Positions 10,311-61,250 of a stretch of DNA of 64,000 nt are shown piece after piece. The notes below the pieces were generated by a model. The model saw only the letters and a program-made list of their open reading frames with translations, made no database searches and was not told where the DNA came from. Position 1 is the stretch's first letter, and every line of letters starts with the position of its first letter. The DNA comes from Novosphingobium aerophilum. Lineage in GTDB: Bacteria > Pseudomonadota > Alphaproteobacteria > Sphingomonadales > Sphingomonadaceae. The DNA lies in assembly GCF_014230305.1 (NCBI RefSeq), contig NZ_JACLAU010000017.1, positions 1 to 64,000 of the forward strand, read 5' to 3'. Made by a program: the position numbers and the translations under genes.

Positions 10311-10370
10311 GACGCGGCCCGCCGGAGCGCACAGGTCACAAGCAATGGGGATTGAACCATACCTGACCTC

Positions 10371-10433
10371 GTTCGTGTCGAGCAAAGTCGAGACAGGCCG
10401 CCCATCCGTGTCTCGACTTCGCTCGACACGAAC
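10371..10433. repeat. Inverted repeat GTTCGTGTCGAGC-type, upstream of rsmB
   Basis: Arms of 25 bases (10371-10395 and 10409-10433) match with one mismatch around a 13-base loop. Similar TCGAGCGAAGTCGAGACA repeats are common between genes in sphingomonads. It is open in the rsmB frame but lies outside the preferred coding start. It also sits just downstream of guaB and could serve as its terminator, although there is no U-run. Confidence 0.8.
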
Positions 10434-10484
10434 GGATGCAGGGAAGCGCAACGGCCATTCAGGCCGTCGGCGACTCCCCCGATC

Positions 10485-29617: not shown

Positions 29618-32490
<2,873 letters not shown>

Positions 32491-34241: not shown

Positions 34242-34406
34242 TGTTCGCGCAGAGGCACAGAGGCGCAGAGATCTTCCGCGTGCCCCCCCCCCCCGCGAAG
34301 CGGGCGCAACAACCGGTGCGATCCAATGCGCAGTTTGAACAAGAGCGCGGCGCTGCCGCTGCCGCGACCTCTTTGCGCCTCCGCGCCTCTGCGCCTCTGC
34401 GCGAAC
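34242..34406. repeat. Long inverted repeat with GTTCGCGCAGAGGC-type arms
   Basis: Arms of about 29 bases (34242-34270 and 34378-34406) contain near-tandem CAGAGGCGC units and are nearly reverse complements. They are flanked by TTTTTTG and CAAAAAA. The centre includes a run of about eleven C residues and has no coding potential. It separates recN from the atp operon, and together with the SOS box and the terminator it accounts for the 34187-34463 gap. Confidence 0.7.
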
Positions 34407-59001: not shown

Positions 59002-59133
59002 GGTGTTTCCTTCAGCCCGCGGGCCCTATTGCCGGCGGGGTTTGCTGCCGGGGTAATGCCGTCCCGGTCCGGTGCGGGGCACTTTGCGCCCCAATGGCCG
59101 AGGCTGCCGAATTGCGAACCTCTGACCCCTAAT

Positions 59134-59213
59134 CGTCATCCCCGCGAAGGCGGGGATCCATTCATCCACCTGGCACAGTTGCCAGATGGATCCCCGCCTT
59201 CGCGGGGATGACG
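59134..59213. repeat. Long inverted repeat between rpsO and pnp
   Basis: Arms of 28 bases (59134-59161 and 59186-59213) are perfect reverse complements with a 24-base loop. Each contains the small hairpin CCCCGC..GCGGGG. It could fold into a stable hairpin in the rpsO-pnp transcript. In E. coli this spacer holds the RNase III site that controls pnp, so an analogous role is possible. Confidence 0.85.
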
Positions 59214-59225
59214 CAAAACGTAAAC

Positions 59226-59245
59226 GGCCCGCCGAAGCGGGCCGA
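59226..59245 (-). terminator. Hairpin after rpsO
   Basis: CGGCCCGC and GCGGGCCG form a perfect 8-base stem with a TTCG loop on the minus strand, 9 bases after the rpsO stop, followed by TTTAC. It is a probable terminator or attenuator, so pnp may also have its own promoter. Confidence 0.75.
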
Positions 59246-59254
59246 ACGTTCGCG

Positions 59255-59524
59255 TCACTTACGCAGACCCAGCTTCTGGATCAACGCGTTGTAGCGCTCG
59301 ACATCCTTCTTCTTCAGGTAGTCGAGCAGGCTGCGGCGCTTGTTGACCATCATCAGCAGGCCGCGGCGCGAATGGTTGTCCTTGTGGTGGCCCTTGAAGT
59401 GCTCGGTCAGGTTGCGGATGCGCTCGGTGAGGATCGCGACCTGCACTTCCGGCGAACCGGTGTCGCCCGCCTGACGGGCGTTGTCCGTGATGATTTCCTG
59501 CTTGCGTTCGGCAGCAACCGACAT
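59255..59524 (-). CDS. rpsO: 30S ribosomal protein S15
   Basis: S15 is a primary 16S rRNA binder in the small subunit. It has 89 residues with the family features [15 protein letters not shown] and [20 protein letters not shown]. The start at 59524 gives the standard length; the earlier in-frame codon at 59533 is not needed. It lies 5 bases after truB in the truB-rpsO-pnp order. Confidence 0.97.
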
Positions 59525-59529
59525 GCTCT

Positions 59530-60564
59530 TCACTCCGCGACATCGGGAAGGTTGAAACCCCGGCTGACGGTCAGGCTTCCGCCCGAAAGCTCGACCAGCG
59601 CGAGTGGCCGTTGGCCGGCCCGCGCCCAGTAAAGCCCGTCATCGTGGGGCAGTCCGGTCAGAACGCGGCCCTGGTGGACCGCCCTTGCCTGTTCCGGACC
59701 GAGGTCAAGAGCCGGGATGTCGACCAGCCCTGCCTCCAGCGGCAAGAGTACGTTCTCAAGGGGGGCGCCCTTACCCACTTCGTTCAGTTTGTCCAGCGAA
59801 ATCGCCTGATTTTCGCCGAACGGCCCCGCCTTCAGGCGGCGCAGCATGGTGACATGCCCCACCGTGCCGAGCGCGCGGGCGATGTCGCGGGCCAGGCTGC
59901 GGATGTAGGTGCCCTTGGAGACGTGGGCCTGGAGGGTGATGGAGCCCAGTTCCTCCCCGGCACGGGGAGGGGGACCAGCCACAGGCTGGTGGAGGGGCAT
60001 CATCGGGGATGCACCCGCTTCTCCGTTCGCACGACCATGCCCCTGCCCCTCCACCATGCTTTGCATGGTCCCCCTCCCCGTGCCGGGGAGGATTTTCAGC
60101 GCAAACACAATCACCCCGCGCGACTTGAGCGCCACCTCCGCCCCCGCCCGGGCCAGGTCATAGGCCCGCTCGCCATCGACCTTGATCGCCGAATAGGCGG
60201 GCGGAACCTGCTCTATAGGGCCGGTGAAGCGGGGCAGGATCGCCTCGACCTCGGTCAGCGAGGGGCGCGTCTCGCTCTGAGCGACGGCCTTGCCCTCCAG
60301 ATCGAGCGTGTCGGTCTCCACCCCGAAGGCCACGGTGAACGCATAGACCTTGCTGGCATCCAGCATCCGCCCGCACAGCTTGGTCGCCTCGCCCAGGGCG
60401 ATCGGCAGGATGCCGGTGGCGAGCGGATCGAGCGTGCCGCCATGGCCCACCTTGATCCCCTTGCCGAAGCCTGCCTCGCGCAGGTTGCGCTTCACGGCCG
60501 CGACGGCCTGGGTCGAACCCAGACCGAGCGGCTTGTCGAGCACGATCCAGCCACTGGGGCTCAC
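59530..60564 (-). CDS. truB: tRNA pseudouridine-55 synthase with an in-frame repeat insertion
   Basis: TruB makes pseudouridine 55 in the T-loop of tRNAs. The protein has 344 residues against about 300 in relatives. The catalytic motif [10 protein letters not shown] has Asp46; [21 protein letters not shown] and [12 protein letters not shown] follow. Residues of about 158-205 (from ILPGTG to AGEEL) are encoded by the palindromic element 59951-60092, lying between the catalytic core strands. Removing them restores the normal length. The GTG start overlaps the M50 gene (GTGA). Confidence 0.94.
59951..60092. repeat. Nested palindromic element inside truB
   Basis: This is a 142-base element. Its outer arms (59951-59999 and 60044-60092) are 49 bases each and are reverse complements except in the inner hairpin. 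TCCTCCCCGGCACGGGGAGG forms a small hairpin at each end. It is open in the truB frame. The C-terminal side is read in the same frame as in ligA (PPR-GEE), while the N-terminal side is read one base shifted. Confidence 0.9.
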
Positions 60565-61250
60565 GCGTTGGCCACCAGGTCGGCCAGACGCAGGTAATGG
60601 CCCAGCACCCAGTCAACCGGCGGGCCGACCAGGCGTCCCACCGGATCGAACCCCGGGATGACCTGGGGCAGGACCACCAGCAGCAGCAGGACCAGCATGA
60701 ACCCGGTCCGGCGAATGCCCGCATAGGCGGCGGCAAGGCGGCGCGGCAGCAGGCCTTCGACCACGTGCGATCCGTCGAAGGGGGGGATCGGCAAGAGGTT
60801 GAACAGGGCGAGGAAGACGTTGATCGACAGAAAGTTGAACAGGTTGAGCGCGACAAATCCGACGATCGGCCCGGCCGGGGCGCCATCGGCCAGACGCACC
60901 ATCAGACCGAGCACCACGGCCCCGAGCGCCGCCAGCACCAGATTGCTCCCCGGCCCGGCCAGCGCCACCAGCATCATGTCGCGGCGGGGATTGCGCAATT
61001 GCCGGGGCACGACCGGAACCGGCTTGGCCCAGCCGAACACCGGCATGTGCGCCAGCGCCAGCATTCCCGGCAGGATCACGGTCCCGACGGGATCGACATG
61101 GCGCAGCGGATTGAGGGTCAGCCGGCCCATGTCATCGGCGGTCGAATCGCCCAGGAGCCGGGCAACATAGCCATGCGCGACCTCGTGAAACACGATCGCC
61201 ATGACCAGCGGCAGGATCAGCGCCGCGCCCTGATAAAGGGTATCACTCAT
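60561..61250 (-). CDS. Site-2 protease family (M50) membrane metallopeptidase
   Basis: This intramembrane zinc protease-like protein has 229 residues and about six membrane segments. The zinc motif HEVAH is at 22-26 in the first segment, and the second motif NLLPIPPFDG (third ligand Asp) lies near residue 155. The compact form without a PDZ domain is common in bacteria; the substrate is unknown. It overlaps the GNAT gene by 4 bases (ATGA) and truB by 4 bases. Confidence 0.9.
   Translation of the reverse strand: MSDTLYQGAALILPLVMAIVFHEVAHGYVARLLGDSTADDMGRLTLNPLRHVDPVGTVILPGMLALAHMPVFGWAKPVPVVPRQLRNPRRDMMLVALAGPGSNLVLAALGAVVLGLMVRLADGAPAGPIVGFVALNLFNFLSINVFLALFNLLPIPPFDGSHVVEGLLPRRLAAAYAGIRRTGFMLVLLLLVVLPQVIPGFDPVGRLVGPPVDWVLGHYLRLADLVANA

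Follow-up and report, generated by a model that had tools for sequence, protein, structure and literature searches.

The window analysed here, a stretch of 64,000 nucleotides from Novosphingobium aerophilum, carries two conserved genes that are interrupted in frame by copies of one palindromic element. The truB gene encodes tRNA pseudouridine-55 synthase, and a Pfam scan of its product finds the domains TruB_N and TruB_C_2. The ligA gene encodes an NAD-dependent DNA ligase, with Pfam matches around its insert to the ligase domain, HHH_2 (first half) and BRCT. The features of both loci are as follows.

29618..31801, minus strand: ligA (NAD-dependent DNA ligase) with the second copy of the palindrome; start chosen at 31801
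30006..30157, minus strand: second palindrome copy, in frame in ligA (HhH region), 152 bp
59530..60564, minus strand: truB (tRNA pseudouridine-55 synthase), 344 aa, from the open reading frame and its translation
59951..60092, minus strand: palindromic REPIN-like element, in frame in truB, 142 bp
59951..59999, plus strand: arm 1 of the truB element, 49 nt
59952-59970: outer hairpin of arm 1, CCTCCCC..CGGGGAGG
within arm 1: inner hairpin, CCAGCC..GGCTGG, a stem that covaries among copies
60000..60043, no strand: spacer of the truB element, 44 nt (48 nt by a shorter arm definition)
60044..60092, minus strand: arm 2 of the truB element, inverted, 49 nt
60073-60091: outer hairpin of arm 2
within arm 2: inner hairpin, CCATGC..GCATGG

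A palindrome in truB and its copies in the genome

The original prediction described a 142-bp nested palindrome that adds about 48 residues (158-205) to TruB, and we recovered it at exactly 59951-60092, where it encodes these 48 residues in an open frame. Its 49-nt arms are 90% complementary with 44 nt between them. Folded as single-stranded DNA, the palindrome reaches -63.2 kcal/mol, compared with -31.7 +/- 3.2 for 200 shuffles (z = -10). The spacer had no significant match among the spacers of the other 27 copies in the genome, and a search of positions 59100-60600 against Rfam returned no family and no intron.

The insert occupies a beta-hairpin turn, and its counterpart is missing from the aligned chains of solved TruB structures. 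The alignments of 1sgv and 1r3f pass directly from profile position 162-163 to 200-203, and the listed stretch of 1k8w stops at profile position 162. In an AlphaFold model of TruB, which is weak (mean pLDDT 65.7, 11 sequences) and was used for insert placement alone, residues 161-200 have pLDDT values of 26-37 by blocks and lie between strands at 149-158 and 208-215. The inserted loop may well be disordered, and TruB presumably remains active.

The same element had been predicted in ligA, where it is indeed present, at 152 bp under the same end definition rather than the 158 proposed. TruB (PPPRAGEE) and LigA (SPPRSGEE) share the reading frame of the C-terminal arm but not that of the N-terminal arm (LPGTGRGT in TruB), just as the prediction had it. 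Its suggestion that the element lengths themselves keep the frame did not hold: the copies in truB, ligA, glyS and trmD measure 142, 152, 146 and 124 bp, none a multiple of three. Compared with the empty alleles common in the genus, truB has a net gain of 126-129 nt, ligA of 135 nt, glyS of 147 nt and trmD of 129 nt. Therefore the junctions lost or gained some flanking bases, and what survived was in frame. All 26 inserts that we measured across genomes (truB 15, glyS 7, trmD 2, ligA 2) are in frame and free of stops, although insert-bearing genes were found by protein search and open ones may be favoured. This pattern speaks for translation straight through the insert. Moreover, 100 of 139 distinct arms are stop-free in all six frames, compared with a mean of 47 and a maximum of 56 for single-base shuffles, a control that keeps single-base composition only.

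How widely is the element dispersed? The original prediction proposed counting its copies across the genome and inside genes. In the source genome (4.19 Mb in 119 contigs), the 142-bp query gave 76 match rows on both strands, or about 33 places after merging by eye, and at least 28 of the copies are two-ended. If two mismatches at most are allowed, the end motif occurs 78 times on the forward and 83 times on the reverse strand, and its mirror control 9 and 8 times. Most copies end in TCCTCCCC..GGGGAGGA, and their arms, some 49 nt long, reach 96% identity from one site to another. A uniform subfamily accounts for 18 of the 28 two-ended copies, sixteen of 131 bp and two of 179 bp. Most of its 131-bp members have similar flanking bases, and these copies may have spread within a larger repeat. 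The spacers of the remaining ten copies are mostly unrelated, the exceptions being L009, which resembles L010, and L015, which resembles the 131-bp subfamily.

Five of these ten copies, 124-152 bp long, lie in frame within conserved genes, namely truB, ligA, trmD, glyS (beta subunit) and metH (activation domain). Pfam matches span or flank the element in TruB, LigA, TrmD, GlyS and MetH. Five is a lower bound, as the Pfam scans took in 15 of the 28 copies, with 19 spanning frames between them. Counting in-gene copies by open frames alone was rejected, and only Pfam-supported copies were counted, because GC-rich DNA yields many spanning frames. The truB site is a turn between strands; those in ligA, trmD, glyS and metH are probably exposed as well.

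Two other observations concern the repeat family in this genome. The two 179-bp members of the uniform subfamily (L075, G000:C48:19038-19216; L076, G000:C33:15447-15625, with G000 the source genome) hold a 48-bp segment inside one arm, apparently a nested insertion. In addition, an element end falls in the first 250 bases or so of contigs C24, C26, C45 and C91, and the family probably breaks the assembly.

Filled and empty sites across Novosphingobium

The elements have inserted into truB, ligA, trmD, glyS and metH, and relatives have empty alleles of truB, ligA, trmD and glyS. Of 99 genomes in the genus, 95 yielded a TruB, and we read the turn in 90. It is short in 69 of the 90 (among them L042, which has a solo hairpin out of frame) and long, open and in frame in 15. 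L087 has an insert with runs of N, and the remaining five run off the end of a contig, three of them within a visible element. The exceptions to the frame pattern in truB are L042, from an assembly with a contamination value of 6, and L087 with its runs of N.

The 19 long turns among the 90 are of at least six kinds. Thirteen match an arm beside a DUF559 gene, with L087 uncounted. The match of L087 to such an arm is of low complexity (E 8e-4); the L087 insert matches a palindrome at position 10370 of the window. The inserts of L024 and L117 hold different inverted repeats, seen by eye, and on this basis we take them to be repeat families. Long turns in L033, L088 and L090 were unassigned as to origin in the comparisons with arms and repeats. 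On a TruB tree built without the turn, the 19 long turns in 87 rows (L108, L118 and L042 left out, 3 of the 90) take 17 changes, and shuffles take a mean of 17.6 and a minimum of 14. The presence of a long turn is scattered over the tree as if at random.

The idea of a mobile element tolerant of coding sites, put forward in the original prediction, thus gains support from the dispersed copies and the five Pfam-supported in-frame genes of one genome, and further support from the 69 of 90 short turns, the absence of the insert from solved TruBs and its scattered distribution on the tree. Inheritance of the same residues by TruB homologues through descent, named there as the outcome that would leave no insertion, was not seen among the truB genes of the genus.

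A separate question is whether the truB site was entered repeatedly or whether one old insertion of a single family in an ancestor was lost in most species. We consider the old insertion possible though doubtful, and it is a caveat to the mobile-element idea at this site. The inserts of one family (family a) share their start nucleotide and phase in seven species (L022, L023, L028, L032, L034, L035 and L038), as an old insertion would have it; a related insert in L025 starts 6 nt earlier. What appear to be short scars of the outer hairpin are left in L044, L042 and perhaps L105. However, the 17 changes on the tree are no fewer than in shuffled data, other kinds of element occupy the same turn, and most short turns carry no recognisable scar.

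The other genes show the same mixture of filled and empty sites. Elements of at least four kinds, and probably of a fifth, occupy the glyS turn in 7 of 18 Novosphingobium genomes. The trmD site is filled in 2 of 18 by two kinds, and that of ligA clearly in 2 of 17 by two kinds, with two further long loops of doubtful nature. Across the four genes, 22 of 37 inserts and long variants have a match to a DUF559 arm, as against 2 of 141 empty alleles, where the 37 include contig-end stubs (L108, L118), LigA length variants from other genera (L297, L300, L301) and two doubtful loops (L279, L282), none of them arm-matched. The two arm-matching empty alleles look like scars.

DUF559 genes between hairpin arms

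One of the ten copies outside the uniform subfamily of the source genome is 501 bp long (G000:C23:60398-60898) and holds, between its two arms, an open reading frame of 144 aa for a DUF559 protein, the end of which runs into one arm. DUF559 is the sole gene-sized cargo among the 28 two-ended copies. How general is this arrangement? DUF559 is present in 50 of 59 genomes of the genus. We took 73 loci, four from the source genome and 69 others that were mostly the strongest matches, and found inverted hairpin arms flanking 61 of the 73 genes (blastn E<1e-5). The same test on pseudo-genes passed in 0 of 58 in the same loci and in 1 of 189 in truB loci. The 12 genes with no arms at this threshold include L144 and L147, two of the four from the source genome. 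In a named collection, an alignment headed by this DUF559 family retrieved 578 relatives; arms flank 75 of the best 80 of them, and at least four loci are shared with the 73. By their titles most of the 80 are from Sphingomonadales, three from Caulobacter, one from Arthrobacter and one from Microvirga, and some are named only to class or phylum. Class-wide, DUF559 occurs in 43 of 115 genomes and arms pass the test in 16 of 29 loci.

Several DUF559 loci have similar flanks in many species, which suggests frequent vertical inheritance of the master locus. By the similarity of their flanking bases, L146, L337, L339, L343, L364 and others, in several Sphingomonadales, appear to hold the gene at the same place, directly upstream of the same gene, presumably ispE by our reading of the open frame in L013. 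A second DUF559 gene of the source genome (L145, G000:C93, 1413-1925) is enclosed by perfect 41-bp inverted hairpins that belong to a different arm family.

What kind of protein is DUF559? Its predicted structure (pLDDT 90.5) has 3hrl and 3r3p as best solved relatives, and by sequence the matches are 7e-26 for 3hrl and 1.6e-4 for 3r3p. Foldseek aligns the model with 3r3p, the homing endonuclease I-Bth0305I, at E 1.8e-4, and more weakly with 1vsr, the Vsr endonuclease (probability 1.00, E 0.011). Several acidic residues and one His (E, D, E, D, H and D) are retained in 68-71 of 71 DUF559 sequences and are candidates for the catalytic residues. In the part consulted, one study already assigns a DUF559 protein to the EDxHD family of homing enzymes (PMC9403480), and another describes VsrA, a Caulobacter DUF559 protein, as a putative repair nuclease with a proposed role in mismatch repair (PMC12907096). 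In the literature searched, judged largely by titles and the openings of abstracts, we found no report linking DUF559 to palindromic repeats, and sphingomonads have no occurrence in the consulted part of PMC3733652.

The association between DUF559 and the elements is strong, as far as sequence comparisons can establish it. On a DUF559 tree of 71 of the 73 rows (the others fell to a length or stop filter), the arm cluster takes 7 changes for 7 states over the 50 rows whose arm cluster has two or more members, and 300 shuffles gave a minimum of 26 and a mean of 30. At least three element matches were found in 42 of 45 genomes with the matching DUF559 clade and in 18 of 54 without it (Fisher 4e-10), where the clade cut of E<1e-18 and the count of three were set after the tables had been inspected and the matches per genome are lower bounds (8 candidates scored per genome). 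Loss of DUF559 or incomplete genomes could lie behind some of the 18, although G046, with a completeness of 100, 23 element matches and no DUF559 match, stands against a strict need for the gene. Among the 15 inserts for which arms from their own genome were in hand, the own-genome arm ranks first for seven (permutation P 0.001), four of them from the source genome; for the other eight it does not rank first, and five of these match no arm of their own genome. Because the cuts were post hoc and a single genome supplies four of the seven own-genome matches, our confidence in the DUF559 link is slightly lowered. The tree agreement and the co-occurrence, in statistics uncorrected for kinship, are also partly shared ancestry. 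Shared ancestry is likewise expected in the repeat association of single-copy RAYTs, according to the part of PMC3116915 consulted.

The arms themselves bear marks of constraint. All four inner positions of the inner-hairpin stem are paired in 26 of 71 cases, compared with a shuffled mean of 1.9 and maximum of 7, in a count that assumes one fixed stem layout and undercounts shifted stems. These two-sided changes suggest that the folded arm is under selection. We found no convincing target-site duplication in 83 arm-flanked DUF559 elements, mostly TCCTCCCC-ended, with k-mers of 2-8 and end offsets. The largest excess of direct repeats, for 2-mers (38 vs 26), arises from an A..T extension of the terminal inverted repeat.

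How the elements may move, and known systems

We propose that the truB insert is probably a non-autonomous REPIN-like palindrome that is moved by a Vsr-like DUF559 nuclease, not by a RAYT, and is tolerated in turns of coding regions. In the mobile unit, a variable spacer of 32-60 nt would separate two inverted arms that measure about 45-49 nt and contain two hairpins apiece. The presumed mobiliser is the DUF559 protein, a predicted Vsr-like endonuclease of the EDxHD type, whose 501-bp copy on C23 would be a 'REPtron'-like master locus and which would act on the arms in trans. It may nick or cut the folded arms or the target, and repair of the break may copy the arm-spacer-arm unit, as in homing. 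New copies would land in genes too, where those that survive would be in frame and in tolerant turns, helped by arms that are mostly stop-free in six frames. The interrupted gene would then be translated straight through the insert. A wider reading, towards which we lean somewhat less firmly, is that in sphingomonads and probably other Alphaproteobacteria a domesticated Vsr-like/EDxHD DUF559, in place of a transposase, sustains REPIN-like doublets as a class of mobile DNA, with an arm family recognised by each nuclease clade, and that in the process surface turns of core enzymes are rewritten time and again in frame, with short peptide scars left after the doublets decay.

Could the palindromes be moved by an unrelated transposase, with DUF559 often carried along as a passenger or kept as a domesticated neighbour? 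By their flanks, many DUF559 loci seem to have been passed on vertically at fixed sites, 18 of the 54 genomes that lack the matching DUF559 clade have at least three element matches, and VsrA of Caulobacter is proposed, in the part of the report consulted, to have a cell role in mismatch repair (PMC12907096). However, the arm family closely tracks the DUF559 tree, DUF559 is the one gene-sized cargo of the 28 two-ended copies, its predicted fold is that of a homing endonuclease, and a Y1 transposase was not found in the source genome. We therefore regard the passenger explanation as unlikely. The last of these points bears also on a classical REPIN moved by a RAYT, a Y1 tyrosine transposase, encoded elsewhere. 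The layout is alike, with an inverted doublet, a variable spacer, compensatory hairpin changes and dispersed copies, as far as the consulted part of PMC3116915 describes it. Yet a search for PF01797 gave 0 matches in the source genome, for which reason a RAYT mobiliser was rejected, while the same search was positive in 5 of 14 control genomes, including Caulobacter. The ends are TCCTCCCC in place of GTAG/CGTC tags and at least five copies lie inside genes, so that a RAYT is very improbable here.

Two further explanations dispense with movement or with the insert itself, and we give each very little credence. The sequences might be immobile GC-rich bidirectional hairpins, such as terminators or protein-binding sites, that converged locally; they are rich in hairpins and in GC, and many copies lie outside Pfam-supported genes. 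Local convergence is hard to reconcile with arms of about 49 nt that are up to 96% identical between sites, with empty alleles in relatives and insertion within coding turns, and with the negative Rfam search of positions 59100-60600. Alternatively, the insert might be removed from the mRNA like an intron, or be bypassed by ribosomes, as its strong hairpin and the kinship of DUF559 with an intron homing nuclease could suggest. The 26 measured inserts are all in frame and stop-free, a constraint unexpected for a segment that is removed, and Rfam found no intron in the same interval; intron-like removal was rejected on this conservation of frame.

Protein-coding palindromes are reported from Rickettsia and Wolbachia, and for the Rickettsia palindromic elements (Ogata et al. 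2000, 2002) we rely on the consulted parts of two reviews (PMC2229807, PMC10969869). As described there, they are palindromes of about 105-150 bp in several families that lie in frame in unrelated conserved genes. The elements studied here likewise have lengths of about 100-150 bp in several families and sit in frame in unrelated conserved genes. They differ, by description, in belonging to another lineage, in having a proposed partner nuclease, and in that several families occur at one turn of truB and likewise of glyS. The REPIN-RAYT or REPtron systems, again from the portions consulted (PMC3116915, PMC6006769), share with them the inverted hairpin doublet, the variable spacer and the dispersed copies, as well as a gene flanked by its own repeat family and co-evolving with it. 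Our elements show the inverted doublet with spacer and covarying hairpins. In contrast to REPIN-RAYT as described, they have a DUF559 nuclease of Vsr/EDxHD fold in place of the Y1 HuH transposase, longer arms and no GTAG/CGTC tag, and where REPINs are extragenic, at least 5 of the 28 two-ended copies are inside genes. Unlike EDxHD homing endonucleases, DUF559 apparently sits in no recognised intron or intein, and its gene lies between hairpin arms that are also found as short dispersed copies. Bacterial MITEs and the Caulobacter CIR elements are also short, with inverted repeats and many copies, and CIR is alphaproteobacterial too; by the descriptions consulted, CIR is intergenic (PMC10969869, PMC2229807). 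The target duplication of MITEs was not seen in the 83 arm-flanked DUF559 elements.

What is new here is the DUF559 link, as in-frame palindromes and a REPIN-type layout were already known. We know of no named agent that moves protein-coding palindromes. A free-living group shows the same phenomenon here: several element families share one site, and there is a candidate for the agent. Should DUF559 prove to move the arms, a domain still named for its unknown function would gain a role, REPINs would have a second solution that needs no HuH transposase, and essential enzymes would have a testable source of new loops.

Three further inverted repeats lie in the window. At 34243-34406 are 28-nt arms (GTTCGCGCAGAGGCACAGAGGCGCAGAG) 108 nt apart; compared with the inserts and the DUF559 arms, this repeat gave only a short C-rich match, to L087. 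At 59134-59213, adjoining a gene that we take to be rpsO, is a perfect 28-nt inverted repeat (CGTCATCCCCGCGAAGGCGGGGATCCAT), the arms of which resemble the GlyS insert of G006 (87% over 23 nt, E 0.002). At 10370-10434 is another palindrome, with CGTTCGTGTCGAGCAAAGTCGAGACA arms. In G011, a member of its family occupies the ligA loop (82% over 65 nt) and probably the truB turn too (96% over 27 nt).
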